Positions 15,357 through 46,827 of a stretch of 51,998 nucleotides of DNA are shown one piece after another (the stretch's first letter is position 1; each line of letters starts with the position of its first letter). The DNA is taken from positions 1-51,998 of the IMG/VR virus record IMGVR_UViG_3300017952_000014, one strand, 5' to 3'. The notes under the pieces were generated by a model that did not search any database, was not told the DNA's origin, and saw nothing but the letters and a program-made list of their open reading frames with translations. A program made the position numbers and the translations under genes. Source of the DNA: a virus.

Positions 15357-15364
15357 TATTTATC
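15357..15364 (-). promoter_or_regulatory. Late promoter GATAAATA overlapping a stop codon
   Basis: GATAAATA on the minus strand; its TAA (15362-15360) is the stop codon of the 5368-codon gene. The ATG of the 204-aa gene follows at 15339 with AGGA between. Confidence 0.7.
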
Positions 15365-21300: not shown

Positions 21301-24300
21301 TCCCATTCTTCAGGTAGTACTGTTGATTTTACCCATTCGTAAACATTAATGGAATTAGTATTTGAATACTTTTTGTTCCAATTGTTTGCACTAAAGATTA
21401 CATCAGACTGATAAGGATTAATAAATTTAGCAGTTGTTAAATCCCACCATAATTTACCTACTTGGATCTCGCCCCAACTATTTGTAGTATCTACATTTAC
21501 ACCTGTTCCAACTGTATAAGTTGCTGGATCATAATACGTTTTATAAGATAGTTCTTGTTCTGCAGGTCCTGGAATTTTACCTTGTAATACATCGACATAA
21601 TCTAAATATTGTATTATTTCGTTGTCCAAAGTATTATATAACATAACACGTTTTATTTTGTTTACATCGACAGTAGGTTTACTTTGTCTTAATACTGACC
21701 AAATATCTTTCTGTTTATAAAAATCAACAACTGTACCTGCCGTGTTTGCAGAATATTCAACTAATGGCATACCTGCATAAATGTGATTGTTTGAAACTTT
21801 AATATTAGAACCAAATAATATTGTAGAGCTATCATCAAAATCTATCATCTGTCCGTAAATTAAAGAATCGTCAATTCTTTCATATACCCTAATTACTCCA
21901 GAATTATTATCGTAAGACCTAATTTTAGTTAAGTCATTGTCAAAAGTTGTTGTATTACTATCAAATGTATCTTGTACAAAAGAGTCGCCATTTCTACAAC
22001 CAACAACAAGATTGTTCCCATCAAAATCAACTTTATAACCAAATAATTCTGCTTTGTCTTCTGCTGGACTATAGAGTTCTTGAGATAATTCAAATATTCC
22101 GTTTACTTGTTTGTATATGTAAACTTTTCCAAAATCAACACCTTTATCGTCGTTGAATGGCGCACCAACTGCTATGATTCTGCCATCAGCACTAATAGAA
22201 ATAGTAGATCCGTATTCGGTAGTTTTACTCGGAGCCGGTATTTTTTGATATCTTACAAAAGATCCGCCGTCGTTTCTATAAACAACTAAACTATTATCTT
22301 TACTATCTTCATACTTTACTGAAACAACTAAAACTTCACCATTCTCGCTTACATCAAAACTTTCTGCAAATTCTGCTAATAGATCTTGATCAAGCACTGT
22401 GCTGATGTCATCTCCGATTAAAAGTCCTGTATCATTAGGTATATAACCAAGGTAATCTTTGTTTGTTTCTAATAAAGTCCAATTTGAAATATCAAATAAT
22501 CCGGGAGCCATATTAGTAACAGATTCATACAAATTACCATCATAATATACAATATCATTTTCAAAATATGTTCTGGTGTTTTGATACTGTCCTCTGTATT
22601 GCTTATCTCTACTAAATTCCCAACCAAAAGAATAATCATCATTTACACCATTATTAATGATGTAAATCCTACCTTTGCTATCATCATAGACTAAATTGTT
22701 AGGTTTATCATTTTGCGGATAACTTCCTAAACTTTTAACAAACAACTTATACAAGTCGCCCGATTTAGACATTTTAAGTTGGTGACCAAGTTTATTATAA
22801 TTACTTCTATCTGGTATTGCAAATGCACCTAATTTGTTGTATAGGCCTGTACCTCGTCTTTCAAAGACAGTATACATTCCTTCTTTTTCAAGTCCGCTAC
22901 TTGTTCCGCCTGCAACTACTGGTAAATTAAATACCTCAGTCCAATCATTATTATTTTCTGCAGGAGCATTAGCTGTTCTAGGTATACCAAATACATCGCC
23001 TTCTCTGCTAAACCAATATTCCGGACCTTGAGCACCGTCTGATACATTTTGCCCAGTAACATTTACTAATACTTGTTGTTCTGTTACAGGTAAAGGGAAT
23101 CCTGCATCGATTGCAATTAACTTTCCTATACCAGCTTGAGGTAATGAAAAACTTCTCGTTCTAATTTGTCCGAATTCTGCTGAGCCTGGTGACCCGTCAT
23201 TTTTTGGAGGAAGATCATATTCTGTTCCTGCGTCGGCTGGGTCTGTAGAGCTTAGATATTCAACCGATCTATTATCTCCATATTTTTGTCCTGCCGCCCA
23301 AGTACCAGATACGTTTTTCAAATATAATCTAGTATCCTGACCGTTAAATTTCTGATAAAATGCTATTTCAGCTGTGCCGCCATTTACAGTATCTCTAATA
23401 GTAAGACCTACCTTTGGCTCTTTAAATAAATTTTGATCTAAGGGATTTGGTATTGTAAGTTCTACATCAATAAATCCGTCATAAATGTCATAGACTTTAT
23501 GTGTTTTATTCAATGTTTCTATAGCAAGACCGATATCGCTAGGGTCTTTAAATATTAATCCGTCTAACGGTTCATAAAACAAGCTATTAAATTGGTCATT
23601 ATTGTCTAAAAACTCTTCTGGACTTGTGTGAGCAGTTTTAACTCTCCAGTATATTGTATCATATGCACTAGTTGCATATTTTAAAACTGTACCAGAAACA
23701 TAATTTGTTAATGGTTGCCATACTCCGTCTTCAAATTGCGGAAGAGAATTGTAAAATAAATCAATAGTATCGTTATCGTCGTCACCAGGAGCAACTACAT
23801 TCAAATTATTAGTTAATTCATCTGGCGCTTTTACAACAAATATATTACTTGCAAAATCATCTGTTACATTTAACGGTCCTGGTGCTCCGTAATATGAAAG
23901 ATTAGCAATTCTAGTATAAATGTCGTCGTCTGAATAAAAAGGATTATTTGCTAAAACTTCGTCAGCTCTATAGTCTAAAATGTTATAATAGAATCTATTT
24001 GGATCAGCTTCTCCGTTTGGTACAATATCAAAATAAACTAAACCTCTACCAGTATCTGAATTAATTTGATCTACATTTACATTTGCAGGAAGATTAATTT
24101 TCCAATATCCTCCCCAATATTCATCATACCCAATTACTTCATCAATAGGTGCTACAGTTTCATATTCACCAACAAATTCACCAATAGTAGTAGTTAAAGA
24201 TCCAGCTGTTCCAAAACTACCATTAACATCTTTCAAATAAATTGTAGTATTTGCAGTAGCATCTTGTTCAGTAGAAGGATTAAATGTGTAACTTACAGTA

Positions 24301-27300
24301 CCAAATCCGCCAGCCACTTCTACAACTTGACCTATTAAAGGAATAACGTTTGCTTCTGGTACAAATAGTATCACATCTATTTTTTCTTGAATAGTATGAT
24401 CGCCTGAAATAAAAGAGCTATCTAATCCAGGAATATCTCCCTGGAACGGCTCTACTGCTTCTAATTCATCTTGTATCTGATCCTGATATGCATAACTTAA
24501 AGTATTCCATTTTAGTTTTAATGTATCTCCGATACCTGAACCTTGATACATATCTAACGGAGCTCTTACAATTATATGATCAACTTCTGTGCCAGTAAAT
24601 GGATAGTTACCTGTCATTAACGTAGGTGTATTTTCGCTGTCTGAAGCAGTAAGGTTTAGTTCTGTTCTAATACGTGCAATAGATTCAAAACTTCCAAATA
24701 CAATATTGTCAACTGCACCTAAAATGTCTGTAGTAGCTTGCCATAAACTGTCTTGGTACCTTACAATGTCTCTATCTGAGTAATTAGAAGACTCAACAAA
24801 ATTATCTTTAAACAATGTTGTTACATTAGACGCATCAGGGGAACCAATTACTAAGTATCTGCCGTCTGTAGATACCGCAAGTGCGGCACCAAATCGTTGG
24901 CCATTATCTGCTACACTATTATCAGCATCTAAAATCTGTGATACTTTCCAAGTACCTACAGAACCTGCTCTAGTATAAACAAATACTTTACCGTTGTTTG
25001 AATCAGGTGCTCCGATTACAAGTACAGTGTTAGCTTTATTGACTGCTAGTGCTACTCCAAAGTTGGCGTCTTCACCTGCTGTTTCATTTACTAATATTTG
25101 TTTTTCTTGGAATGCATCTGTTCTATCTAAAACTAGCCATTCTTCTTTAGCATCTTTATCTATCCAAAGTCTATTAATTGTTTCTTTATTTTGTTGTAAT
25201 AATTTATTTGCTGTATCTATATCGTCTACCCTAGAATCAACAAATTTAATAATTCTACCATTAAGATTTTCAGTTTCTGTTGCTGATGCAAGACCTGTAT
25301 CATCAAGTACTTCAATAGCTGTTCCCGATACAGAGCTAACTTTGTAAAAACTTGCAATTCCGTCTATGTTATAAACGCCTATAATATCATCTTTGGATAT
25401 ATCATCTATTCTTGTAGTATCTAGTATTAGTTTGCCACTCGATCCCAATTGTTCTATACTAGTAATATTATAATCTGTACGTAGAGCAGTATAAACATTC
25501 CAGATTAAATTATCATTGCCTATCCAGAATTTGTCACCTTCTCTAATATTTGCAAATGTTAAAGATAACAAACTATTATACTGATTTAGAACAAATTCTA
25601 CATCTTCTGAATTTACATAACCAGAATTTTTTGTGTATGTTTTAGTAACATACTTTTCAGGAAATGGTGCATGATTATAATTTTGCGGACGCAAATATGT
25701 TTCAAATGGCTGTATTCTGTAAACTAAATCAGTTTCTAATCCAGTGATTCTATCTACTAGTTCAAAACTTTGCGGACTTAGGCGCATTTTACTTTCGTCT
25801 AATTTATACTCAACTTCTTCAAATCCGTCGGCTGCGCCATACTGGCCGCATTTGATTGCCCATTCTTCATAAAATTCTAAACTATCTTTGTCTGCACTGC
25901 TTAATACATTAAACAATTTATCTAAGGCATTCTGTGTGCCTTTATCTTGTATCATTCCCTGATAAAACTTATACTGACTTACATCATCATTAATAATATT
26001 TGCTAGGTAGTCTCTATTTTGATATCCTATCAAATGCTGTGCAAATTTTTGCTGTTCTATATCAAAATTATCTGTGTCTAAATCATAAAAATCTGCAAAT
26101 TGATTAACCTTGTATTCAAAGTTTGGAATAAGTTTCATCTCTGGGTCTTCTGACAGACGTACCCATTGATTAGCATCAAATACATTATTACCCGGAACCT
26201 TATTTCTTGCAGTGTAGAAAAACTCTTTATACTTAACAAGGTCACCTATAGCATAATCTTTCCATTGTTCCCATTCGGTAACTCTTGCATTATCAAAAAT
26301 AAAACCTGGAACATTTAAACTACCGTCCCAGTCTGTAGTTCTATAACCTAGTACTTTAATTCTTTCTTGTCTATAGCCTGGTTCTTGATCATAAATTATA
26401 TCTCCAAACACTGTTTTGTTGTCTATTAAAACTACATGTTCTTTTTGAACAAGAGATAATCTAATTCCAAATATACCATCAGCAGTAGCCTTAGGCTTAA
26501 TTACAAATTCGTTTGGATTCTCTCTCGTTAGTCTAGCATTCTGCGGTTCTAACTTTTTGCCATCAGCTTTAAATAAACTGTATCCATAAAAAGTATCGTA
26601 AATATCATCTACTATAGAATACTCTGAATTAAATTTAATTTGAAATGCGCCCGGGCTTAGGGTAATAACACTGCCTGCTCCCCAATTTTGTGTTGTCCAG
26701 AACATAAATTCTTTGGAGCTAGTTTGCCAGTCTGCAATAAAACCATTTTCTTCGTCAAAATAATCAAAAACAAAGCCTTGACTTTCTAAATATTTTCCGT
26801 ATCCTAACAAAAAGTCAACAACCTGTTGTATAGTTGTGTAAACTGTTCCGTAAGAAACTTTTTCAGGAATTGTTGAGAATGTTCTCCTAAATACTGCTTG
26901 ACGACCACCTACAACTGGTAGTTCTGGAATTTTTGCAAATTTTGTACTATCAAATTCAGTTGTGCTAGTATGTGTTGTTGTTACACGATAATAATTATTT
27001 TCAAATTCTACAATAGATCCTGCACTATATAATTTATTAGAATCCCATAATATAAATGTTTGACTTACGCCGCCCACATTAATAACAGGATCACTTTCTA
27101 TTTCAAACGGTCTATAATATGTAAAATAAGGTTGTTGTACATTGTAGCCTTTTACAACAAAACCGTAACTTTGTTTTTCTATGATTACACCGCTATAGGT
27201 TATATTTTTTATAGGACTACTTGTGTTTAAAAATATTTTGTAATTTTCTTCAGGTACAAAAACATTTCCTTCGTTTAAAGGAGTTCTACTATCTAGCAAT

Positions 27301-30300
27301 AATTTAAATTTGTCTTTAGAAGTATATCCTCCTAATTTAAATCCTATAAAGTTTGAAATATTTTTTAAATTATTTTTATACGAATCATATGTTACAGTAA
27401 CATCAGAAGATAGATAATCAAAAACATAATTAACAAATCCACTTGTATAAACTCGTTGTGTATCCTTTATAGTATTTGGAAAAACAATATTAGATAGTTT
27501 TAATTGAACATTAGGATTATCATAGATAATGTCATCTACTAATCCTCTTTTTTGACGAAGTCTGTCCCATGCTACACTCATTGACCTATTAGGCTGGTTA
27601 ACAAATATAGACGCAACTAAAGCAAATGGATATTCTGAGCTATTTCTCCATGTAGTCTCTACAGGACTATGGTCGCCATATACAAAGTTAAAATCAAGGT
27701 CAGTTGTAATAAACTCTTTGACATAACCGCTGTATACAGGACTTACCAACTCGCCATTTTCGTCTACAGGCAAATGATCTAATAAATCCGGACGTTTGTA
27801 TTTTTCATTAACTGTATACGAACCTTGTGCGTTTCTAACTATACCGTTTTGAATATCTTCCCATAACAGGAAATTATTACTTGTATAAGGTGCTTCTCCG
27901 TACTGTTCGTCCCACCAAGTAGGTTTGATAGTAAAGCCTTGCATTTCCCAAGGATGAGTATGCGGACGGTCTGTATCATAGGCCCATTTATAAATTCCGC
28001 GCCACCAACCGCTAATTGCATTACCGCTTGGATCTAACATTCCTTTATGGTTAAATGTAAAAGAGTTTTCCCTAATATAGTTTATATTGTCTGTGTAATC
28101 GTTATCTACAAGTTGCAACCATTGAACAAAATCACTTAACATTGTGTCATCTAACTGCTTTTTAGTAACACCTGTATTTCTATATTCGCTAGGCACATAG
28201 TCGCTAATATCAAACAGATCCTTGTCATATTCAACTTTAAGGTTATTGTAAATTCTTCTTTCGAACTCAAGAATTAACTCATCTCTAAAATCGCCATAAG
28301 TTTTTATAATACTTCCGTCATGGCCTTGAATTACTTCAGTAGGTTCTAAATATCTATCGTCAATAAATTTAGTAGGAATATACTTAGGATATAACCCTAA
28401 TTTTGTTGGAGTAGCAGGACAGAAAGATCCGTTAGTTGATTCATATTCATAAATTTCTATGACATCGCCGATTTGCTTTATAGTTGTAATAATAGCAAAA
28501 CCTTCGCTGTTAAAAGTATAATCAACGCCGTGTACTAATTGAATGCCGTTTTGATATATCTGCACAGCTTTATCGCTTGCATTTTCTAAACTAAATGGAT
28601 AAGTCAATGCAAAAAATTGGAGATCGATGTCATTTATTTCAAATACATTACGAGTCGATGCTCCTGTAGGAATCATGTCTGTAAAATAAAACGGCATTGT
28701 ATTTGTTTTATCTTTAAGCATTTCACGTAAGATTAAATCTACGTGTGTTTTAACTGGTCCGTCAAAACCTAGTTCTTCGGCTTTTTTTATAAATGTTCTT
28801 TTATATTTTCCGTATTCTCTTCGAGCATATTTTATAGCCTTTACTAAATTAGATTCTTTGTCTAGTAAATGATATAATGCTAAGTTCATTGGTGCAGAAT
28901 GTTTTACAATTCTTTTACCATATTTTGTAATATCTGTAATATCACGTAAATTACTTACTCCGGGAAATAAACCATCAAAATTATCTGCTTCTTCTACGAT
29001 AGACCTTACATGGTCATTAACTTCGCCTAGTGTAAATTCAGTTATGTTTTCGTTTAAAGGATTTCTTTCAAAATTATTTGCTATTTCGTAGTAACCGTTT
29101 TCATTTTTTACAGCAGAACTACGTGTTTTTATTTTAATAACATCGCCATAATTAGGTGCTACTGTAAAATTAATTACAGATTGATTTTCGTTATTTGTTG
29201 TAAGAGTATAATCTATATTAGGTTGTTGAATTTGATTATTAACAAAAACTCTAATCCATAAATCTTCTAATAATGCACTTTCATCATATACATCAATAGG
29301 ATATGATATTCTTGTATTATCTACATCATACTGTCTAATAACATTTTGACTACTTAAAGTGTCTGCTTTTTTCCAACCGTTTACATACTCAAAGTCAGAA
29401 AGCCCGTTATACTTTCTTAAATAACCTATACCGGACAACGTTGTACTATAAGATTCATCGACATATGCAATGCCATCTGAAAGTAAGTCAAAGTTAAAAA
29501 CTAAATCACCTACGTTCTGTATGCTTCTATAAGATAAAGGAAATCCTAATTCTGTATCATTTGTGCCGCTGCCAACTTTATATGAAAAAAGTTTTGTTCC
29601 GGTAAAGTCTTGCGATTCGTAATAATTAGTATCTCCTAAACTGTTACCATTTACATCATAAATGTCAAATAAAGGCGACTGGTTAATTGTTGTTTTGTCT
29701 TGAGCTAGTTGCCAACGTGTTCCGTTGTAAAACAACATTTTACCTTTGTAAACTTCTCCATTTTTACAAAGAACAACTTCATTTTCGATTGGAGCAGAAT
29801 CTTCAACTTCTAAAAGCGCAATTTGTCTAGAATTTCCAAACAATATAAAACTTACTTCGTAAATTCTACCATTTACCCTTTCATCAGTATCTGCGGTAAA
29901 CATAACTCGCATACCGTTGGCTAAATCTACTCCGTCAACATTGTAACCTTCAGATCCTTCTATAGTACTAAAAACATCAATTGTAAAATCATCAACTAAG
30001 TCGATGTTACTTTTAACTTGTGTTCCAAAATTAAATAATTTTAAATTAGATTCAAACTCTATAATTGGTCTTACTGCTCTTTTTGTTTGATCTATATTAG
30101 CAGGTATACCATTTATACTTGCAGATTTTTCAATAATGCTTTTATGGAACCATCTATTATATTTTGACCAAAGGTTACCATCTTTACTACCGCGGTTAAT
30201 TGTAATATAATCTTTGTTGACAGGATAACCAATTGCTTCAGAATATGGCAAGTTGTCAAATCCGTCATTGTCAAAACTTACTTCAAGGTCAGTAGTAAAA

Positions 30301-31466
30301 GAACTAGGTACATTTAATTCTACTTCAGAAATAAGAACAATTTTGTCACCTACACCTTCTACATACCAATTTCCTGTATTATATTTTTCAGGTATTACAG
30401 TTCCTTGGAAAGAAAGTTTCATACCATTTGATATTTCTATACCACTATTAGTAGTATATGTCTTCTTTCCTAATATTTCTGTACCTACATCTAATGAAGA
30501 TGCTTCGTCAATATCGTAAATTCTTATTAAATTTCCTGCATTTACATCAGTGTCTGCAACATAGTAAATTTCATTAGGAGTGCCGTTGTCAGGAGTAAAC
30601 TCGATTACTCCTTTTTCTACTCCATTATCACTAACTTCCCTAGTTAAATTAAATGTAGTATCTATTTCCCACTTACTTGCATCATCGGTAAACTCTTTAG
30701 ATGCTCTAAAGTCTTGTAACGATTTATAAATTGTATTTTGATAAAAAACTCTTTCGCCAATAGAATACAAAGTTTCTGGCACCCAAGCTGGAGCATTTTC
30801 TCTTTTTGATCTTAGTGAAAACGGCAATCCTGGTGTGTCTATTTCAAATCTATAAGTAACACCTCTGTACAAAGTTAGTTGAGGATTTTGTGTAATACCG
30901 TCAGGAGATAAAATATATGCAAAATTATCTGTGTTGTCTATAGATCTTACAGTGTATGTGCTTACAACTAGATCGCTTACACCAGATACTGTGATTGCTT
31001 GAGGACCGTCTGGCAGCCAATAATATTCACGAAAGTTTACAAATTTATCCCAATTGATATGAGGATTCCATGCATAGTATTCTTGTCTATTTAAAATGCT
31101 ATGGTCATCTACTGTGCCGTCTAAGTTTTTAATTTGATTAATGTAATCATTATAGTCTCTATAAAAATTAACATTACCTAAATCGTCTTTAATTACTGCC
31201 GCTGGCTCAAGTTGATAATTTTCTCTTTGTTGATTTACATCGCCGATATAAAAATCATCTATAGCATGACCCGGAGAACTTTTTCTTCCGACATAGCCAT
31301 TTAGTTTTTCTGCAACACCGGGTTGTATAAGTTGATCAAGTGTGCTAGATAAAAACTTGTTGTTAACTTCAGACCTAAAGTAACGGGGCAGATGCTGAGA
31401 ACTTTTTCTGCGTTGTTTTCCATCGCCTGGCAACGGAAGCTCATTTTGATCTTTATTATAAGCCAT
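15360..31466 (-). CDS. Giant multidomain baseplate/tail protein (5368 aa)
   Basis: One uninterrupted 16.1-kb frame, about 600 kDa, starting at a TAATG overlap with gp6; it occupies the position of T4 genes 7-8. Visible modules: a basic N-terminus (KQRRKSSQHLPRYFRSEVNN); six carbohydrate-binding-like motifs of the form YxxGxxVxYxxxxY near residues 230, 1475, 1735, 2230, 2590 and 2970; FG-GAP-like propeller blades at about 2136-2210 and 2890-3240; Gly-rich GSGYxxxPxVxVxG segments near 3655 and 4020; repeated beta-sandwich units with FVxVNG-type strands near 730, 970 and 4400-4900; and an IPT/TIG-like Ig domain near 5090 (YPGQSCVVYGTGFETNVKAI). No enzyme motif is clear. It probably forms the baseplate periphery or a long adhesive arm; giant proteins are known in marine myoviruses, but this role is inferred. 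Confidence 0.85.
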   Translation of the reverse strand: MAYNKDQNELPLPGDGKQRRKSSQHLPRYFRSEVNNKFLSSTLDQLIQPGVAEKLNGYVGRKSSPGHAIDDFYIGDVNQQRENYQLEPAAVIKDDLGNVNFYRDYNDYINQIKNLDGTVDDHSILNRQEYYAWNPHINWDKFVNFREYYWLPDGPQAITVSGVSDLVVSTYTVRSIDNTDNFAYILSPDGITQNPQLTLYRGVTYRFEIDTPGLPFSLRSKRENAPAWVPETLYSIGERVFYQNTIYKSLQDFRASKEFTDDASKWEIDTTFNLTREVSDNGVEKGVIEFTPDNGTPNEIYYVADTDVNAGNLIRIYDIDEASSLDVGTEILGKKTYTTNSGIEISNGMKLSFQGTVIPEKYNTGNWYVEGVGDKIVLISEVELNVPSSFTTDLEVSFDNDGFDNLPYSEAIGYPVNKDYITINRGSKDGNLWSKYNRWFHKSIIEKSASINGIPANIDQTKRAVRPIIEFESNLKLFNFGTQVKSNIDLVDDFTIDVFSTIEGSEGYNVDGVDLANGMRVMFTADTDERVNGRIYEVSFILFGNSRQIALLEVEDSAPIENEVVLCKNGEVYKGKMLFYNGTRWQLAQDKTTINQSPLFDIYDVNGNSLGDTNYYESQDFTGTKLFSYKVGSGTNDTELGFPLSYRSIQNVGDLVFNFDLLSDGIAYVDESYSTTLSGIGYLRKYNGLSDFEYVNGWKKADTLSSQNVIRQYDVDNTRISYPIDVYDESALLEDLWIRVFVNNQIQQPNIDYTLTTNNENQSVINFTVAPNYGDVIKIKTRSSAVKNENGYYEIANNFERNPLNENITEFTLGEVNDHVRSIVEEADNFDGLFPGVSNLRDITDITKYGKRIVKHSAPMNLALYHLLDKESNLVKAIKYARREYGKYKRTFIKKAEELGFDGPVKTHVDLILREMLKDKTNTMPFYFTDMIPTGASTRNVFEINDIDLQFFALTYPFSLENASDKAVQIYQNGIQLVHGVDYTFNSEGFAIITTIKQIGDVIEIYEYESTNGSFCPATPTKLGLYPKYIPTKFIDDRYLEPTEVIQGHDGSIIKTYGDFRDELILEFERRIYNNLKVEYDKDLFDISDYVPSEYRNTGVTKKQLDDTMLSDFVQWLQLVDNDYTDNINYIRENSFTFNHKGMLDPSGNAISGWWRGIYKWAYDTDRPHTHPWEMQGFTIKPTWWDEQYGEAPYTSNNFLLWEDIQNGIVRNAQGSYTVNEKYKRPDLLDHLPVDENGELVSPVYSGYVKEFITTDLDFNFVYGDHSPVETTWRNSSEYPFALVASIFVNQPNRSMSVAWDRLRQKRGLVDDIIYDNPNVQLKLSNIVFPNTIKDTQRVYTSGFVNYVFDYLSSDVTVTYDSYKNNLKNISNFIGFKLGGYTSKDKFKLLLDSRTPLNEGNVFVPEENYKIFLNTSSPIKNITYSGVIIEKQSYGFVVKGYNVQQPYFTYYRPFEIESDPVINVGGVSQTFILWDSNKLYSAGSIVEFENNYYRVTTTHTSTTEFDSTKFAKIPELPVVGGRQAVFRRTFSTIPEKVSYGTVYTTIQQVVDFLLGYGKYLESQGFVFDYFDEENGFIADWQTSSKEFMFWTTQNWGAGSVITLSPGAFQIKFNSEYSIVDDIYDTFYGYSLFKADGKKLEPQNARLTRENPNEFVIKPKATADGIFGIRLSLVQKEHVVLIDNKTVFGDIIYDQEPGYRQERIKVLGYRTTDWDGSLNVPGFIFDNARVTEWEQWKDYAIGDLVKYKEFFYTARNKVPGNNVFDANQWVRLSEDPEMKLIPNFEYKVNQFADFYDLDTDNFDIEQQKFAQHLIGYQNRDYLANIINDDVSQYKFYQGMIQDKGTQNALDKLFNVLSSADKDSLEFYEEWAIKCGQYGAADGFEEVEYKLDESKMRLSPQSFELVDRITGLETDLVYRIQPFETYLRPQNYNHAPFPEKYVTKTYTKNSGYVNSEDVEFVLNQYNSLLSLTFANIREGDKFWIGNDNLIWNVYTALRTDYNITSIEQLGSSGKLILDTTRIDDISKDDIIGVYNIDGIASFYKVSSVSGTAIEVLDDTGLASATETENLNGRIIKFVDSRVDDIDTANKLLQQNKETINRLWIDKDAKEEWLVLDRTDAFQEKQILVNETAGEDANFGVALAVNKANTVLVIGAPDSNNGKVFVYTRAGSVGTWKVSQILDADNSVADNGQRFGAALAVSTDGRYLVIGSPDASNVTTLFKDNFVESSNYSDRDIVRYQDSLWQATTDILGAVDNIVFGSFESIARIRTELNLTASDSENTPTLMTGNYPFTGTEVDHIIVRAPLDMYQGSGIGDTLKLKWNTLSYAYQDQIQDELEAVEPFQGDIPGLDSSFISGDHTIQEKIDVILFVPEANVIPLIGQVVEVAGGFGTVSYTFNPSTEQDATANTTIYLKDVNGSFGTAGSLTTTIGEFVGEYETVAPIDEVIGYDEYWGGYWKINLPANVNVDQINSDTGRGLVYFDIVPNGEADPNRFYYNILDYRADEVLANNPFYSDDDIYTRIANLSYYGAPGPLNVTDDFASNIFVVKAPDELTNNLNVVAPGDDDNDTIDLFYNSLPQFEDGVWQPLTNYVSGTVLKYATSAYDTIYWRVKTAHTSPEEFLDNNDQFNSLFYEPLDGLIFKDPSDIGLAIETLNKTHKVYDIYDGFIDVELTIPNPLDQNLFKEPKVGLTIRDTVNGGTAEIAFYQKFNGQDTRLYLKNVSGTWAAGQKYGDNRSVEYLSSTDPADAGTEYDLPPKNDGSPGSAEFGQIRTRSFSLPQAGIGKLIAIDAGFPLPVTEQQVLVNVTGQNVSDGAQGPEYWFSREGDVFGIPRTANAPAENNNDWTEVFNLPVVAGGTSSGLEKEGMYTVFERRGTGLYNKLGAFAIPDRSNYNKLGHQLKMSKSGDLYKLFVKSLGSYPQNDKPNNLVYDDSKGRIYIINNGVNDDYSFGWEFSRDKQYRGQYQNTRTYFENDIVYYDGNLYESVTNMAPGLFDISNWTLLETNKDYLGYIPNDTGLLIGDDISTVLDQDLLAEFAESFDVSENGEVLVVSVKYEDSKDNSLVVYRNDGGSFVRYQKIPAPSKTTEYGSTISISADGRIIAVGAPFNDDKGVDFGKVYIYKQVNGIFELSQELYSPAEDKAELFGYKVDFDGNNLVVGCRNGDSFVQDTFDSNTTTFDNDLTKIRSYDNNSGVIRVYERIDDSLIYGQMIDFDDSSTILFGSNIKVSNNHIYAGMPLVEYSANTAGTVVDFYKQKDIWSVLRQSKPTVDVNKIKRVMLYNTLDNEIIQYLDYVDVLQGKIPGPAEQELSYKTYYDPATYTVGTGVNVDTTNSWGEIQVGKLWWDLTTAKFINPYQSDVIFSANNWNKKYSNTNSINVYEWVKSTVLPEEWDKQAGTERGASKGISGKSKYGNNAYVTKQVYDKASKTFTTYYYFWVGQKTTVPNIEDRTLSANSIAQLIEDPAGQGYRFVSFISPTQFALYNCESLIRGNEVAISVQYWTIEDQDINIHNQYQVISDGLETSKPNRDIEQKWFDSLIGWDLADRPVPAPELSIKERYGILNRPRQTWFVNRVEALKEVVNRINSVLLDNLIVDDKNLNRLTEKEAEPSVASRLFDTTVDTVTELQFVGVSKANQASLTPVVENGEIVRVEINQPGRGYLQAPTVEVFGTGQNAVIETVIDSNGKITDTNIINAGENYNSSNTSISVRRFTVLVKSDSTVNGRWALYERDTTTDEWIRVASQSYDVNQYWQYVDWYEDGYSQFTEINQSIDFAYELQGLDNEIGDIVKIQSVGTGGWLLLEKIDNQTGVDYTINYQTVGRQNGTIQLSDTLYDVSKNLVGYDTTTFDTLTFDGQPSVELRIVLEAIRDDIFVDDLALEYNKLFFSSLRYVFAEQNYVDWAFKTSFIKAQHNVGELDQKINFQNDNLPSYEKYIKEVKPYKTKIREYLSSYEKIDNSQSMTTDFDLPPLYIEGTDNIITRTVKVIDDNLVSQEGPITTYPDKHWADNAGYSIKEIAVADPGSGYVTTPVVTVTGGGGTGAIAKASLGRGGTITSIQIVTEGSGYLSMPTVSIDGTIADGGRSAKAVAILGGSPVRSMNTVVKFDRVSGEFEFINLSTTENFVATGSKVFFNLLWPMDLRTTKVTVSIDNTEVLAGNYAYKNILDTSKGYDRYYGQIEFIDPPADEAQIKIEYHKDISLLNAQDRINIAYEPTVDQFGKTLGQLMTGVDYGGVEVKSFDFGGISGWDSAPWMSRGWDLYDTTFEDEIIYRKLVEITFPEDINLRSARITQDNTNAQGSASVTGSANVLNVSAQFDQEFDTQSEIRYDDSTLLSTQIVNSTDTNINIDTGINANAIPSSIVNYLELAKPLEDGVTYNIYFKATGSDIAVRLDDPDYEGAPLLNKPDVVMASIVGDGVTTRINLDNINITFGQSDVFYVRKITSDGAFKPDNDSYDALIQGGDLSYQSATGLNSADINIDGDGFVTVTTSQGPEEVVPGQVVDTLDITVFEKSTGGASQIVSRNYRGDGQTVRFNIGDSPVTRDNLFVKIDNIIQEKNTYYIDFNTKDIVFNTAPADNATIFVASIGLSSISIIDIDDFVGDGETVEFLTNSRFEENSEAFVTINGKVVNVQLFKSDDTYELPGNYVIKFAEAPFDTAVIKLLIASKGLINVEYSQVTIDTIVADGSTLQYDLGKAPFTQNPSRAFMLVKVNDRFLNPGYTEQFEVTSNRNYTFDLTQVPVGAVNAYEIELYLNGRQLEYLQEWTYQGAGAFDDTKPEDEQAGSTITLERGVGDPGDKLQAYIITDAEFKLGYYESDNDFIKTPGTIHFNEPFNEDDIITVYQFSNHDSQGIETQKFVVSEKTKLTEGTTAYYEYRRLSRGIIELTTPAEDAQYVWVSVNGNLLTPSIDYSVTLDNRYIKLQQIPQENDVIVVQHFANAKITERFGWRQFKDMLNRTHYKRLETSYELAEDLAWTDKTIKLKDATNIPVPVFNSEYPGVIFIEGERIEYFQVDGNELLQIRRGTLGTGVKDLYLAGTKIIEQGADTNLPYKDETEVVTVEAGGYDIASTIYEDSPGVTVERFYFTSNNNSAFPLGGDPIPSIGYPGQSCVVYGTGFETNVKAIVGETECETTYVNDTELYFKTPALPVGAYDLVIVNPATNVPIDRAQTSVVVPKAIPYLQILLPFAPTPNPASEDQWSELEQTGWYKELVSIPVSQGIPGRGYIIDSKGTTDFTQIGAPNNLSGTEFIIPRDVDTTLLTGTGRLLDFASIPYEYWEAQDIEVFAGGRRLRKTPIAVYDYTAQDSPEGDKNVEAEFAVNKAIGAYVRLTYPPENGTNVTIVRKIGTVWSNPGQRLVDANSDVANFLLSSTTDVPR

Positions 31467-41705: not shown

Positions 41706-42716
41706 TTGTTTAAAAAAGCGGCTGTGTTTACCGATATTCACTTCGGTTTAAAAGGAAATAGCAGAGTACACAACGATGATTGTGAAGAATTTGTAGATTG
41801 GTTTATAGAACAGGCAAAAGCTAACGGTTGTGAAACTGCAATCTTCTGTGGAGATTGGCATCATAACAGAAATAGTCTAAATCTAACTACAATGGATGCA
41901 ACTATTCGAAGTTTAGAAAAAATAGGTAAATCTTTTGAGAAGTTTTACATGTTTGTAGGCAATCATGACTTGTATTACAAAGACAAGCGTGATGTAAGTT
42001 CAACTATATTCGGAAAACATATTGATGGTGTTACATTTGTAGATGAAATCTATGAACAAGACGATGTAGCACTTGTTCCGTGGCTTGTCGGCGACGAATG
42101 GAAGAAGATTGAAAAAATTAAAGCCAAATATATGTTTGGACATTTTGAACTGCCGAGTTTCTATATGAATGCTATGGTGCAAATGCCTGATCATGGTGAT
42201 CTACGTGCTGAGCATTTTAAAAATCAAGACTATGTTTTTAGCGGGCACTTTCATAAACGTCAAGTACAAGGCAAAATACATTACATTGGTAATGCGTTTC
42301 CTCACAACTATGCAGATGCATGGGATGACGAACGCGGTATGATGATACTTGATAAAGAAAATGGTAAAGAACCTGAGTACATTAACTGGTGGAACTGTCC
42401 TAAGTATCGTACAACTACACTAAGCAAACTGTTGGATCCAAATGCAGACATTATAAAACCTAAAATGTATTTGCGTGTTACTATTGATGTTCCTATTAGT
42501 TACGAAGAAGCACAGTTTATCAAAGAAACATATATTTCTCAATATAATTGTAGAGAAATAACACTAATACCGCAAAAACAAATTGAAGAAATTACAACTG
42601 ACTTAGATATCTCAGCATTTGAAAGTGTTGACGAAATTGTATCTAAAGAAATAACTGCAATTGATTCAGAAAACTTTAACAAAAAAATGTTACTAGACAT
42701 TTACAATGAGTTATAA
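41706..42716 (+). CDS. gp47: Recombination endonuclease subunit gp47 (SbcD/Mre11-like)
   Basis: A 336-aa metallophosphoesterase with all family motifs: TDIHFG (D10, H12), GDWHH (residues 49-53), GNHD (85-88), GHFELP and SGHFHKRQ. These bind two Mn ions for nuclease action. With gp46 it makes the Mre11/Rad50-type complex that resects DNA ends for recombination-dependent replication and host DNA breakdown. The start is a TTG ten bases after GGAG; no better ATG lies nearby and the first strand (KKAAVFTDIH) begins immediately. The stop TAA is directly followed by the gp46 ATG, so the two are co-translated. Confidence 0.95.
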   Translation: MFKKAAVFTDIHFGLKGNSRVHNDDCEEFVDWFIEQAKANGCETAIFCGDWHHNRNSLNLTTMDATIRSLEKIGKSFEKFYMFVGNHDLYYKDKRDVSSTIFGKHIDGVTFVDEIYEQDDVALVPWLVGDEWKKIEKIKAKYMFGHFELPSFYMNAMVQMPDHGDLRAEHFKNQDYVFSGHFHKRQVQGKIHYIGNAFPHNYADAWDDERGMMILDKENGKEPEYINWWNCPKYRTTTLSKLLDPNADIIKPKMYLRVTIDVPISYEEAQFIKETYISQYNCREITLIPQKQIEEITTDLDISAFESVDEIVSKEITAIDSENFNKKMLLDIYNEL

Positions 42717-44489
42717 ATGATAAAAGTAAAAGATCTTACAGTAAAAAACTTTATGAGTGTGGGTAATCAAACTCAGGCTGTTGATTTCAACAGAGAAAAG
42801 TTAACGTTGGTGCTAGGTGAAAACTTAGATCAGGGAGGTGACGATTCTGGCTCACGAAACGGTACAGGTAAAACTACGATAATCAATGCATTATCCTACG
42901 CCTTGTACGGCCAAGCACTAACAAACATCAAGCGAAACAACCTTATCAATAAAACTAACAGTAAAGGTATGGTTGTTTCGCTTGACTTTGAAAAGGATGG
43001 ACAAACATATAGAATCGAAAGAGGCCGTTCACCTACATTCTTAAAGTTTTATGTAAACGATCAAGAGCAAGAAGCTGAAGACGAATCGCAAGGCGACAGT
43101 CGTAAAACGCAAGAGTACATTAATGACTTGTTAGGTATGAGTCATGACATGTTCAAGCATATTGTTGCACTGAATACATATTCAGAACCATTCCTTGCAA
43201 TGCGTCAAAATGATCAACGTGCTATAATTGAACAACTTCTCGGTATTACTATATTATCAGAAAAAGCAGATGCTCTCAAAGAACAAATACGTGTTACTAA
43301 AGAAAGTATTACTCAGGAAACACTTAAGATAGATGCTATCAATAGTGCAAACGCACACATTGAAGATACTATTAAAAGTCTTAAAACTAAACAAAGTGCA
43401 TGGAACTCTAAAAAACAACAAGATCTTGGAAGATTACAACAAGGATTAGATGAATTAGAGCATCTAGACATTGATGCAGAACTAGATGCACACGAAAAAC
43501 TGTCTAGTTGGACAGAAATGAACAATGCTATTTTGGCTCTTAATAAAGAAAAAAGCACACTAGATGGTGCGTTACTACAAGCTGATAAACGTGTTAAAAA
43601 GATTGAAAAAGATGTCTTAGATCTTGAAGATGCAGTATGTTATACATGCGGACAATCACTTCATGAAGATAAAAAACAAGAAGTCTTATCACAAAAAGCA
43701 ACCGAATTAGAAGAAGCAATAGCTTATCAGACTGATGTTACTAATAAACTAAACGGAGTATTAAAGAATCTCGACGACATTGGTGATATTAACGGTAAAC
43801 CATCAACGTTTTACGAAACTGCTAAAGAAGCATACGATCATCGAAACAATGTGGATAATCTAAAACAAGCAGTTCGGACAAAAGAAGATGAAACAGATCC
43901 TTATGACAGTCAAATAAAAGAATTAACACAAGAAGCAATACAAGAAGTTGACTGGACACCTGTAAATGACCTTACAAATCTTAAAGATCATCAAGAATTC
44001 TTATTAAAATTACTTACAAACAAAGATAGTTTCATTCGTAAAAAGATTATTGAGCAAAATCTAGCATATCTAAACAACCGACTAACATATTATCTTGATA
44101 AACTAGGGTTGCCTCATCAAGTTCTTTTCCAAAACGATCTAAATGTTGAGATTACCCAACTAGGACAGGACTTAGACTTTGATAATTTGTCAAGAGGTGA
44201 GCGTAACAGACTTATTTTAGGTTTAAGTTTTGCATTCCGTGATGTTTGGGAAAGTTTATATCAAAATATTAATTTGTTATTCATTGACGAGTTGATTGAT
44301 AGCGGTATGGACACAGCAGGTGTTGAAGGATCTCTTGCTGTTCTCAAAAAAATTGCACGTGAACGTGATAAAAATATTTTCTTAATCAGTCACAAAGATG
44401 AACTAGTCGGTCGTGTAAACACGATATTAAAAGTTGTAAAAGAAAATGGATTTACAAGTTATGAAAACGATTTGGACGTAGTAGAATGA
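42717..44489 (+). CDS. gp46: Recombination endonuclease subunit gp46 (SbcC/Rad50-like)
   Basis: A 590-aa SMC-type ATPase. Walker A is GSRNGTGKTT (residues 45-54); the central coiled coils (about 165-300 and 315-440) meet at a zinc hook CYTC (C308, C311); the ABC signature is LSRGERNR near 490; Walker B is INLLFIDELIDSG near 515-527; the H-loop is LISHKDE. It pairs with gp47 and uses ATP to open and process DNA ends. Length is close to T4 gp46 (560 aa). There is no gap between it and gp47. The early promoter upstream of gp47 probably drives both. Confidence 0.95.
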   Translation: MIKVKDLTVKNFMSVGNQTQAVDFNREKLTLVLGENLDQGGDDSGSRNGTGKTTIINALSYALYGQALTNIKRNNLINKTNSKGMVVSLDFEKDGQTYRIERGRSPTFLKFYVNDQEQEAEDESQGDSRKTQEYINDLLGMSHDMFKHIVALNTYSEPFLAMRQNDQRAIIEQLLGITILSEKADALKEQIRVTKESITQETLKIDAINSANAHIEDTIKSLKTKQSAWNSKKQQDLGRLQQGLDELEHLDIDAELDAHEKLSSWTEMNNAILALNKEKSTLDGALLQADKRVKKIEKDVLDLEDAVCYTCGQSLHEDKKQEVLSQKATELEEAIAYQTDVTNKLNGVLKNLDDIGDINGKPSTFYETAKEAYDHRNNVDNLKQAVRTKEDETDPYDSQIKELTQEAIQEVDWTPVNDLTNLKDHQEFLLKLLTNKDSFIRKKIIEQNLAYLNNRLTYYLDKLGLPHQVLFQNDLNVEITQLGQDLDFDNLSRGERNRLILGLSFAFRDVWESLYQNINLLFIDELIDSGMDTAGVEGSLAVLKKIARERDKNIFLISHKDELVGRVNTILKVVKENGFTSYENDLDVVE

Positions 44490-44513
44490 GTTAATGTGTT
44501 ATATTAGGTTACC

Positions 44514-44723
44514 ATGAGTGAAATAAAAGACGATATACATGACCAACTAACAAAGGCATACATGGAATATTTTAAGGCAAACGAAAAGTTTGAGTCTAGA
44601 AATTCTGTGAGAACACATCGTGAAGCACGGAAATGGTTGCGAATTATTAGAAGTTTAGCAAAACAACGCATGGAAGAAATACATTCAAAACACACAACCA
44701 AAAAAGAAGGCAACAAAGAATAG
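44514..44723 (+). CDS. Small basic helical protein
   Basis: A 69-aa protein, almost entirely helical and rich in Lys/Arg (RTHREARKWLRIIRSLAKQR), with a Lys-rich tail. AGG lies eight bases before the ATG. It falls 24 bases after gp46 and 18 before the endonuclease gene, and looks like the small helical proteins found beside gp46 in marine T4-like phages. Charge suggests nucleic-acid binding, but no domain can be named. Confidence 0.75.
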   Translation: MSEIKDDIHDQLTKAYMEYFKANEKFESRNSVRTHREARKWLRIIRSLAKQRMEEIHSKHTTKKEGNKE

Positions 44724-44741
44724 GCACAGGTAAGTAAGTTC

Positions 44742-45191
44742 ATGCAGTGGACTTACAAAGGCAAAGTAATAGACAAAATACCAGACGAGTATGAAGGCTT
44801 TGTATATCTCATAACCAATCTTAAAACTGGGCAAAAGTACGTAGGCAAGAAACTAGCAAAGTTCAAAACAACAAAACCTCCGCTAAAAGGCAAAAAGAAC
44901 AAACGCAGAGGCTACAAAGAATCAGACTGGCGTGACTATTGGGGAAGTTCTGATAGATTAAACGCAGATGTAGCAAAGCTAGGCGAAAAAAACTTCACTA
45001 GAGAAATACTATACCTATGTAAAGGCAGGGGCGAAATGTCCTATATTGAGGCAAGAGAGCAATTTGACCGCCGTGTATTAGAGACGGATGAGTATTATAA
45101 TGGAATTATTAATGTTAGAGTTGGCGGTTCCGATAAATTGCGCAAGGCTTTGCTAGAACACACCATCAAGGCAAAACAATCCAACACATAA
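44742..45191 (+). CDS. SegE-like GIY-YIG endonuclease
   Basis: A 149-aa protein with a GIY-YIG core: GFVYLITN (the GIY strand, residues 19-26) and QKYVGKK (the YIG strand, 31-37) ten residues later. A basic loop (KGKKNKRRGYK), DWRDYWGSS and a later Glu-bearing segment SYIEAREQFDRRVL complete the fold; INVRVGG is near the end. This is the SegE-like form common in T4-like marine phages, some of which are freestanding homing endonucleases. There is no clear DNA-binding C-terminal module, so it may be either a reduced homing enzyme or a resident nuclease. A possible ribosome site, AGGT, lies thirteen bases upstream. The next 366 bases hold the structured RNA candidate. Confidence 0.87.
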   Translation: MQWTYKGKVIDKIPDEYEGFVYLITNLKTGQKYVGKKLAKFKTTKPPLKGKKNKRRGYKESDWRDYWGSSDRLNADVAKLGEKNFTREILYLCKGRGEMSYIEAREQFDRRVLETDEYYNGIINVRVGGSDKLRKALLEHTIKAKQSNT

Positions 45192-45557
45192 GGTTAGCGG
45201 GCCAGTTTAGAAATACCGCTGTGGAAAAAGCACTCGTATAGAGGCACACGTAACACGTTGAGCGGCGTTCGGTAGTAGAGCGTTTGATTGACGTAGATGG
45301 AATGTTGGCTGTCGAAAAACTGCAAAGTACATAAAAACCGTATGCACAGGAACGAAGCAACGGGTAGCGCAAGCGATGTCGACGTAGGTTGGGAAAGGTC
45401 AGAGCCCATTGTACAGCAGAAAATACCTACTTCCAAGTCTCGGCTGTGACGAACTCACATGAAGCGAATTTTGAGACAGGCTGGAACCGTAACAGGTTCC
45501 GTCTGACTGAAACAATCTACATGAAACTTAGACGCTTTACTTCGTAAAGCGTTTTTT
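45192..45557 (+). ncRNA. Unclassified structured RNA candidate
   Basis: There is no credible reading frame here, yet two sampled 60-base lines, 45241-45300 and 45361-45420, are 53% and 57% G+C in a genome near one third. Stems that can be seen: AGCGG/CCGCT (45196-45200 with 45216-45220); GTAGGT/ACCTAC (45384-45389 with 45425-45430) enclosing TGGG/CCCA (45390-45393 with 45405-45408); GTCTC/GAGAC (45437-45441 with 45473-45477) enclosing TGTGA/TCACA (45445-45449 with 45455-45459); and GGAACC/GGTTCC (45483-45488 with 45495-45500). It ends in a strong intrinsic terminator. I could not fit it to tmRNA, RNase P, 6S, SRP or group I/II intron cores. The 5' end is uncertain, since no promoter is obvious; it may be processed from the gp46-endonuclease transcript. 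Confidence 0.7.
45532..45557 (+). terminator. Rho-independent terminator
   Basis: A perfect 9-bp stem ACGCTTTAC (45532-45540) with GTAAAGCGT (45544-45552), loop TTC, followed by a run of six T (45552-45557). It closes the structured RNA and the gp55-endonuclease transcription unit. Confidence 0.93.
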
Positions 45558-45567
45558 CATATATAAT

Positions 45568-45638
45568 CACTTCTATCATACAAAACGAAGTGTATAGTTT
45601 GAGCGATAGCGAAAACAAATATCTACGAAGTAGATATT
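45568..45638 (+). other. Hairpin cluster between terminator and late promoter
   Basis: Three inverted repeats follow the terminator: CACTTC/GAAGTG (45568-45573 with 45587-45592); GTTT/AAAC (45597-45600 with 45613-45616) with a facing GA/GA pair and an inner GC/GC; and a perfect 9-bp AATATCTAC/GTAGATATT with GAA loop (45618-45626 with 45630-45638). None has a T run. They may be RNA processing or protein sites, or a backup terminator. Nothing else is seen between 45558 and the late motif at 45650. Confidence 0.6.
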
Positions 45639-45649
45639 CAAAAAGATAA

Positions 45650-45657
45650 CTAAATAC
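45650..45657 (+). promoter_or_regulatory. Late promoter-like CTAAATAC
   Basis: CTAAATAC lies 27 bases before the ATG at 45685, with AGGAAAAG between. The CTAAATA core is the same as in the gp6 and gp48 promoters. Confidence 0.6.
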
Positions 45658-45684: not shown

Positions 45685-46827
45685 ATGAAAGTTTACGATA
45701 TTGTTTCTCTTAGAGAAGATGAATTGCCAAACGCTAGTATGAGCGATTTGCGTTCTATGCAGTTTGTTGCTGACAAGCAAATATTACCTGATGGAAAAGT
45801 AAGAGTTTTATTACCAGATGGTCAAATCTTAGATTTTGCCGACGAGGCTGAACTAGAAAGAGAAACACGAAGAGCTAAATCTAGACTAGCAACAAAAATA
45901 AGAGGGATACCTAGTTTAACTAAACTTGCATCAAGTGCCGCAAGAGTAAACTGGTGGATACAAATTTCGGAAGCAATATATTCAGCTTACACAGAATTTA
46001 GCACAAATGGAATTGACGGTAATTACGAAGCAGTAAAAATGGAACTGCTTGAAGTAGGTGTTGCCGCTGGTTTAAGAGTAGTAATAGGAACTGTAAGAAC
46101 ACTGGCTAAAGGAGCAGGAGCTCTTAAATGGATCAAACGTTTAACTACTGCTAAACGTTCAGCACAAATGGCAACAGCGGCGTTAGGCGCGGCAGGTTTT
46201 GCAACAGGAGGTATAACCTGGGTAGGTGCATTGATTACAGGTGCCGGTTGGATTGCTACGGAAGTTGCGCTATACCTAGCTACAGACTACATAGCCGACA
46301 TGATCGTGGATGAGTTTTTCAATCCTGATGAAGTTGAAAAAGAATTAGCAGAACAACTGCAAGATGAATTAAGTTTAATTTTAGGTTTGACTAGAAGTGC
46401 TAGACACGTAGACGCTGACGGTGATGGCGAGCCAGACAATATCAATCCAGAAACTGGCAATGTAGTAGATCCAGAAACTGGTCAGGATTACAAATATGAT
46501 TTAGGTGATTTAACTCCTGATGATATAGAAAGATTACGCAATGCTACTCCAGGTCAAATTAATCAACTAGCCGATGATCCAAGATTTTCTGATGTATTGT
46601 CAGACTATAGAAATAGGATGGACAGCATAGGCGGTCCTAATTCACGTCGTAGAAGTATAACTGATTTCGAAAGAGAATCAGTGCGTGAAGAATCTGACGA
46701 AGGAAAAGTAGCAGGTACTGAAGAACTACAAGGATTTGTAAACTTCTTAAAAGACAAAGGCTACGACAGAGATTTACGCACTAAAGTTGTAAAAGTTGCA
46801 CAGCATACTATGCGTCAATCAGATTAA
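45685..46827 (+). CDS. Putative virion protein with Gly/Ala hydrophobic segment and Ca-binding loop
   Basis: A 380-aa protein that I cannot assign to a family. Residues 1-75 include KVRVLLPDGQILDFADEAEL, a small beta motif, then a charged helix. Residues about 130-205 are hydrophobic and Gly/Ala-rich (ALGAAGFATGGITWVGALIT, GAGWIATEVALYLATDYIAD), able to form membrane-crossing helices. At about 248 is DADGDGEPDNINPETG, a DxDxDG calcium-loop pattern as in thrombospondin type-3 or dockerin repeats. The C-terminal 130 residues are charged and helical. A late-type motif upstream and baseplate, tape-measure and portal genes downstream suggest a virion component, perhaps one that meets the host membrane at injection. 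The last 9 bp overlap the convergent gene on the other strand. Confidence 0.72.
   Translation: MKVYDIVSLREDELPNASMSDLRSMQFVADKQILPDGKVRVLLPDGQILDFADEAELERETRRAKSRLATKIRGIPSLTKLASSAARVNWWIQISEAIYSAYTEFSTNGIDGNYEAVKMELLEVGVAAGLRVVIGTVRTLAKGAGALKWIKRLTTAKRSAQMATAALGAAGFATGGITWVGALITGAGWIATEVALYLATDYIADMIVDEFFNPDEVEKELAEQLQDELSLILGLTRSARHVDADGDGEPDNINPETGNVVDPETGQDYKYDLGDLTPDDIERLRNATPGQINQLADDPRFSDVLSDYRNRMDSIGGPNSRRRSITDFERESVREESDEGKVAGTEELQGFVNFLKDKGYDRDLRTKVVKVAQHTMRQSD

Follow-up and report, generated by a model that had tools for sequence, protein, structure and literature searches.

A family of large, predicted structured phage RNAs carries two seven-nucleotide sites that are almost always identical to each other

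The DNA analysed here (the window) is a stretch of 51,998 nucleotides, IMG/VR virus record IMGVR_UViG_3300017952_000014, from an uncultured phage with T4-type genes. The genes of interest run in the order late sigma factor gp55, gp47, gp46, a 69-amino-acid gene, a SegE-type GIY-YIG endonuclease, the RNA described below, a 380-amino-acid gene without a family, a baseplate hub gene, a 719-amino-acid gene without a family and the portal gene. The endonuclease gene (44742-45191, + strand; PF19835, E 1.1e-34) is the usual neighbour of the RNA, and the stretch under study (45192-45557) begins right after its stop codon. By portal and gp46, the closest records in the phage collection were jumbo phages, e.g. 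Phosso, Atu_ph07 and PA5oct, all with less than 50% identity. At the corresponding place in the same gene order, PA5oct (76516-77180) and Phosso (229758-230773) have no annotated genes over 0.66 and 1.0 kb, respectively, and these gaps contain inverted repeats. These syntenic gaps gave no match to the RNA by nhmmer (one chance hit, E 1.8, fell elsewhere), Rfam or covariance model. On the - strand of the window, an open frame of 5,368 codons (15360-31466) is unusually long for a phage gene. The gene directly after the RNA (45685-46827) seemingly differs among relatives when compared by eye; several of them share a start (MK.. or MR.., then DI and E), again by eye, and it looks as if a shared targeting start had been joined to changing cargo.

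An initial annotation had described the stretch at 45192-45557 as a G+C-rich, gene-free structured region, and this description was borne out. Six overlapping open reading frames of at least 40 amino acids were found within it, ranging from 46 to 87 (the + strand pair being 50 and 52), and none is a credible gene. Indeed, the many insertions and deletions among the homologues argue against a conserved reading frame, the competing explanation that the annotation had named. The G+C content mostly lies above that of the surroundings, reaching 0.485 at 45200-45399, with windows over 42000 to 45099 ranging from 0.27 to 0.42; a G+C-rich window is also present downstream, at 46100-46299 within the 380-amino-acid gene, where the value reaches 0.495.

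Homologues at the same gp46-endonuclease junction, from which the annotation had proposed building an alignment, exist and could be aligned. A search of IMG/VR with the endonuclease yielded 597 loci, and in the best 80 of these, which were taken further, a profile detected the RNA in 79; the exception (L052) is a contig that ends at the gene. A search with a pattern of the core returned at least 120 stretches. The RNA was present in 202 of the 221 sequences collected, duplicates included (L001 being the window itself), and the remaining 19 comprise Melnitz-3 (L002), L052 and 17 bacterial contigs that the pattern had matched by chance. The matches in bacterial genomes lacked similarity to the RNA in 17 of 19 cases; the other two (L219 and L220) belong to a single Neomarinimicrobiota bin, and both contigs have gp46, the endonuclease and the RNA in the same order. 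In long records, the pattern matched once per contig in 19 of 22, and not at all in the other three. Run on the complete records of HTVC008M, PA5oct, Phosso, DSL-LC06 and Melnitz-3, the covariance model found a single weak match (E 0.175, in Melnitz-3), and further weak matches were obtained in L290 (E 0.02, with nothing recognisable by eye), L332 (E 0.069) and the minus strand of L331 (E 0.21).

For the structural analysis, 55 of the 202 RNA sequences were excluded before alignment as being cut off or having another 5' domain. Mutual information was calculated on the 147 left (111 distinct) and indicated most helices. A set of 87 sequences was picked at less than 88% mutual identity, and 85 of these were aligned (L102 and L157 were left out). 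The 67-pair structure was drawn from the mutual information and the window sequence, that is, partly from the same sequences, so the percentages of paired cells given here lean in its favour. Across the 85 distinct homologues, 44 of the 67 modelled pairs had changes on both sides and 88.1% of cells were paired. Compensatory cells numbered 588, versus 53-124 when the partners were slid by 1 to 3 columns, and 0 of 500 shuffles scored as high. The stretch does not stand out in folding energy (z -0.83, equalled or bettered by 21 of 100 shuffles), so that the case for structure rests on this covariation. Many of the pairs are G-U, equivalent to A-C on the opposite strand, so the + strand is that of the RNA. 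The element represents a large structured phage RNA of a new family, predicted to be about 360-400 nt long and encoded on the + strand, as are all the features listed below.

The stretch is preceded by a conserved 5' element (AGGCAAA...ACACATAAGG, roughly AGGCAAANCAANCCAACACATAAGG; 45163-45191) that overlaps the 3' end of the endonuclease gene. By eye, this element precedes the RNA in most of the 20 loci displayed, including those with no endonuclease codons at that place, and similar words also occur in the second phage group described below. Its conservation ahead of the stretch suggests that the RNA may start near 45163. The 5' domain (45192-45313) is made up of P1 (45196-200/216-220; 99.3% of cells paired), P2 (45221-223/247-249; 100%) with an inner stem (45230-235/241-245; 78.3%), P3 (45255-259/290-294; 98.1%) and P5 (45296-300/309-313; 98.6%), with two-sided changes in each; the interior of P3 holds at least two different modules among the homologues. 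It is followed by the H1 region (45320-45419), a long-range helix, supported by covariation, that encloses P6, P7 and P8. The inner part of H1 (45327-331/410-414) was 95.7% paired, with two-sided changes in 5 of 5 pairs; its outer part (45320-323/416-419) was only 49% paired, the two helix forms not being aligned to each other. P6 (45338-341/360-363) was 96.4% paired, P7 (45367-374) is a hairpin of variable length, and P8 (45391-393/405-407) is invariant in the 85-row alignment and hence uninformative there. The most conserved core, GTCGACGTAGGTTGGGAAAGGTCAGAGCCC (45379-45407), lies in this region, and the alignment contains long invariant core stretches.

The three helices that the annotation had named, and whose covariation it had set as a test beforehand, are all present and passed that test to differing degrees. 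H2 (GTAGGT/ACCTAC; 45384-89/45425-30), which forms a pseudoknot with H1, was 99.4% paired with two-sided changes in 2 of 6 pairs. The hairpin P9 (GTCTC/GAGAC; 45437-41/45473-77) was 80% paired with such changes in 3 of 5 pairs, and the hairpin P10 (GGAACC/GGTTCC; 45483-88/45495-500) was 99.8% paired with changes in 1 of 6; in two homologues (L306 and L248) hairpins of other letters stand, by eye, in place of P10. The annotation had also assigned a terminator to the end of the stretch. A terminator-like hairpin is indeed found in the window (45530-45554; shuffles gave a mean of 0.6), but it was only 53.5% paired in the homologues and, by this comparison, is not a conserved part of the RNA. The weak parts of the fold are therefore this hairpin, the outer part of H1, the inner stem of P2 and P9. 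Hairpins that recur in the homologues extend, by eye, past the terminator to about 45640. Over 45598-45650 and at the same place in homologues, we also noted by eye a small repeated hairpin, (A)GTTTGAGCGNNAGCGAAAAC, followed by another hairpin and a TAAATA-like late-promoter word.

The annotation had stated that the stretch does not fit tmRNA, RNase P, 6S, SRP or group I/II core motifs, and the searches for known classes agree with it. At the gathering score, Rfam 15 gave no match in the window (there was only a chance match to snR50, E 7, on 45100-45640), and none at E ≤ 1 in six distant loci. The same scan detected manA and freshwater-2 RNA in the contig of a relative, showing that it is able to see known phage RNAs. 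In that contig, which is 169 kb long (G001), the two RNAs (RF01745 and RF02980) lie in tandem at L325 7841-8199. A conserved leader of about 130 nt, perhaps itself a structured RNA, precedes a gene at about L325 16049-16194 and in matching stretches of G002, G004, G005 and G006; the motifs CTGTGGTTAGCC and GGGACAGGATCCCC are present in most, and it had no Rfam match at gathering score in L325. ARAGORN found no tmRNA or tRNA genes in the window or in seven long contigs. A blastn search of 50,697 phage records, from which those very near the window were possibly excluded, returned no match for the RNAs of the window, L117 or L312, and four short matches at E 0.4 for that of L306, none of them convincing. 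No isolated phage with the RNA came to light. A full-text literature search, in which few subscription papers are covered, found no description of the RNA. In the available part of the source on the isolate with the closest endonuclease (PMC9004378), a glutamine riboswitch and a tmRNA in two pieces are reported, and not the present RNA. Motifs of marine T4-like phages that have no Rfam number, e.g. Ocean-VI, fall outside this comparison (part of PMC2864571).

The position of the RNA next to an endonuclease gene, to which the annotation had drawn attention, holds for the window and for most homologues, but not for all. Of the 202 loci, counted with duplicates, 189 have the gene no more than 2.5 kb from the RNA. 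Among the loci displayed (those numbered above 82 in which the RNA is preceded by 500 bases or more), the gene was missing only from L117 and L125, both of which have terminase genes in its place. Searches with the L117/L125 proteins and a second pattern enlarged this second phage group to 26 loci on 21 contigs. These homologues are very diverged: in L248, for example, the core words are changed, and the 5' element and the twin site described below are kept (by eye; covariance model E 0.042). In the DNA covered, the endonuclease was found in 0 of the 26 loci and a related terminase in 22. The RNA is not universal next to this terminase, since no RNA was seen in most of the other terminase loci for which 1.2 kb or more precedes the gene. 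The endonuclease neighbour is thus not essential to the RNA. Its frequent proximity would fit a mobile element in which the RNA serves as partner or guide of the GIY-YIG enzyme, but its absence from the entire second group makes us regard such a role as highly improbable, and the endonuclease is probably not a functional part of the RNA system. Large structured phage RNAs are few and mostly unexplained. The retention of this one by two kinds of uncultured phage that differ in gene neighbourhood makes it likely that it is important to them.

Several contigs of the collection showed features of their own. In the first 100,000 bases of IMGVR_UViG_3300023105_001938, CATG occurs 0 times versus about 227 expected, and in L018 it is found 8 times from site 1 of the RNA onward; this contrast at the RNA could reflect a chimeric contig joined in the conserved RNA or phage recombination at that place. 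Two other contigs (L306/L342 and L308/L343) lack AATT, AGCT, CTAG, GTAC and TGCA altogether over 14 to 20 kb, with 14 to 104 of each expected (pieces above 6 kb), as if numerous restriction sites had been purged, and further contigs lack single palindromes such as AGCT.

A feature absent from the initial annotation is a duplicated site of seven nucleotides. In the window it reads ACATGAA in both copies, site 1 (45457-45463, preceded by CTC) lying in the loop of P9 and site 2 (45519-45525, preceded by TCT) after P10, so that P10 stands between them. The two sites were identical in 83 of the 85 aligned rows. At least one copy differed from ACATGAA in 33 rows, and 31 of these still had identical copies, with 10 variant words; shuffling among the 33 produced 5.7 matches on average and never more than 14. 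Moreover, windows slid by 4 to 10 columns gave 0 identical rows (21 to 85 rows usable). When scored by flank anchors, which took the best-matching pair, the sites agreed in 169 of 171 loci and differed by one letter in the other two; 31 of the 202 loci were left unscored, mostly because of a contig end and, in the case of L117, for its different word. The identity covers exactly 7 nt, the preceding letters being CTC at site 1 versus TCT at site 2 in nearly all of 118 rows preselected for a repeat. In these rows, whose preselection makes their 118/118 agreement no test of identity, the spacing of the sites was 48 to 68 nt and position 6 was always A; the remaining six positions vary, in both copies. 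The second phage group keeps the rule with other words (for example ATCATCAAGT, GCATAAT, ACATAAT, ACATGAT and ACATCAAG). There is therefore a near-strict rule that the 7-nt sites flanking P10 are identical to each other, whatever their sequence. Such a twin site is a sharp clue of a kind rare for orphan RNAs, since any mechanism must explain how the copies stay identical while both drift.

A dimeric protein with a specificity that differs from phage to phage might bind both copies, and short identical sites, similarly spaced on either side of a hairpin, would suit it. However, six of the seven positions vary in both copies, the neighbouring genes differ between the phage groups and no shared protein gene was seen beside the RNA, and we consider this reading unlikely. 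Cleavage at both sites, freeing a small RNA with P10, is a further conceivable function, either of a ribozyme or of a processing substrate. The long invariant core and the pseudoknot do recall catalytic RNAs, but there is no internal guide complementary to the sites and no match to an Rfam ribozyme family, which leaves this reading very unlikely. Also against a partnership with the endonuclease, the phages do not clearly avoid their own site word: in 19 records it was observed 142 times (the two sites removed) versus 166 expected, a small deficit only, and the other words 1068 versus 1096 times.

We also looked at whether the sites have a complement. A third stretch of the RNA pairing with both sites would covary with them, and none does; no consistent cis complement was detected by columns with G-U allowed, by mutual information or by anchors. 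Likewise, no complement conserved in phage DNA was found where seven long contigs from the phage group of the window could be aligned, which is a small share of their sequence (for G001, alignment with another contig was possible at only 8 of the 23 occurrences, among them the two sites). Neither the ORF starts, nor the conserved intergenic stretches checked, nor the endonuclease start contained a shared complement. A tRNA anticodon loop as partner was set aside on general considerations about position 37. Since the sites are identical rather than complementary to each other, and have no conserved complement in the RNA, both copies probably address one and the same partner.

That partner could be another RNA. 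An antisense or sponge RNA with two seeds, each pairing with the same 7-nt stretch of a host or phage transcript and tracking its changes, would account for identical sites without a cis complement as well as a DNA partner does. Additionally, the complement of most site variants contains AUG, by eye, like the start region of a gene. On the other hand, the searches of alignable phage DNA (a small part of these diverged genomes), ORF starts and the endonuclease start revealed no conserved complement, and the occurrence of variants like ACGTGAA in both copies is unexpected for a fixed AUG target. A trans RNA partner is possible, if doubtful.

The most economical partner, needing no further complement, would be the template strand of the DNA at site 2. 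We propose that site 1, in the loop of P9, might pair with this strand. The folded RNA would thereby be held at its 3' end in an RNA-DNA hybrid (R-loop), much like RNAII at the ColE1 origin. Cutting of the hybrid by RNase H could supply a primer; alternatively, the R-loop could serve recombination. The covariation, the twin rule in both phage groups and the absence of a conserved RNA complement are consistent with such a hybrid. Accessibility does not separate the sites clearly and counts against it: the mean predicted unpaired fraction was 0.56 for site 1 versus 0.51 for site 2, and a mostly unpaired site was predicted in 68% of 116 rows for site 1 and in 43% for site 2. The site words, moreover, are not G-rich, unlike the sequences of ColE1. 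An origin lying exactly at the RNA is unsupported, since the GC-skew minimum sits at the switch in gene orientation and precedes the RNA core by 5.1 to 6.1 kb (G001, G002, G004, G005 and the window; too little of G006 lies before the RNA for placing it), and the third-position skew of + strand genes does not change at the RNA (-0.183 before vs -0.182 after). We put the template-DNA hybrid forward tentatively, as a reading more likely to be wrong than right, and give a trans RNA partner about equal weight; protein binding, cleavage and partnership with the endonuclease stand lower. Its fuller version, in which a 7-nt copy would let the RNA read the DNA strand where its own 3' end lies, and the reprogrammable hybrid would prime replication or recombination in at least two phage groups, is in our estimation slightly more doubtful.

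To our knowledge, no known kind of RNA matches this one, nor any known kind of site a twin that changes in concert, and we regard the RNA as categorically new; if all orphan phage RNAs were counted as one kind, it would join that kind. Group I introns with GIY-YIG endonucleases share with it a structured RNA beside a GIY-YIG gene and a pseudoknot in the core. Their helix order differs, however; here P8 comes before the 3' strand of H1, no exons were seen and Rfam gave no match. GOLLD and ROOL are phage-associated RNAs whose function is not known, and the present RNA has about half the length of GOLLD, ROOL or OLE, or less, and has no Rfam match. Like it, these three are large structured RNAs, but a twin site does not figure in the available part of their description (PMC12286853). 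The manA, wcaG and PhotoRC RNAs of marine T4-like phages are likewise structured and were found by comparative genomics; manA and wcaG are placed in potential 5' UTRs (PMC2864571), whereas the present RNA follows a gene and has no Rfam match.

The nearest parallel to the proposed mechanism is RNAII of ColE1, a folded RNA that remains hybridised to its template DNA at the origin and that RNase H cleavage turns into a primer (parts of PMC3628316 and PMC4555960). No sequence relation to RNAII was seen, and no antisense partner like RNAI was found here. The present RNA also differs in its words, which are not G-rich, and in not lying at the skew minimum, and its hybrid is a proposal. Masukata and Tomizawa are said to have reported in 1990 that an upstream loop of RNAII pairs with the template DNA near the 3' end. 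In the present RNA, similarly, 83 of 85 rows have a loop that is equal in sequence to the DNA at the 3' end of the same RNA. If the hybrid model is true, this family would be a phage counterpart of plasmid RNA priming.
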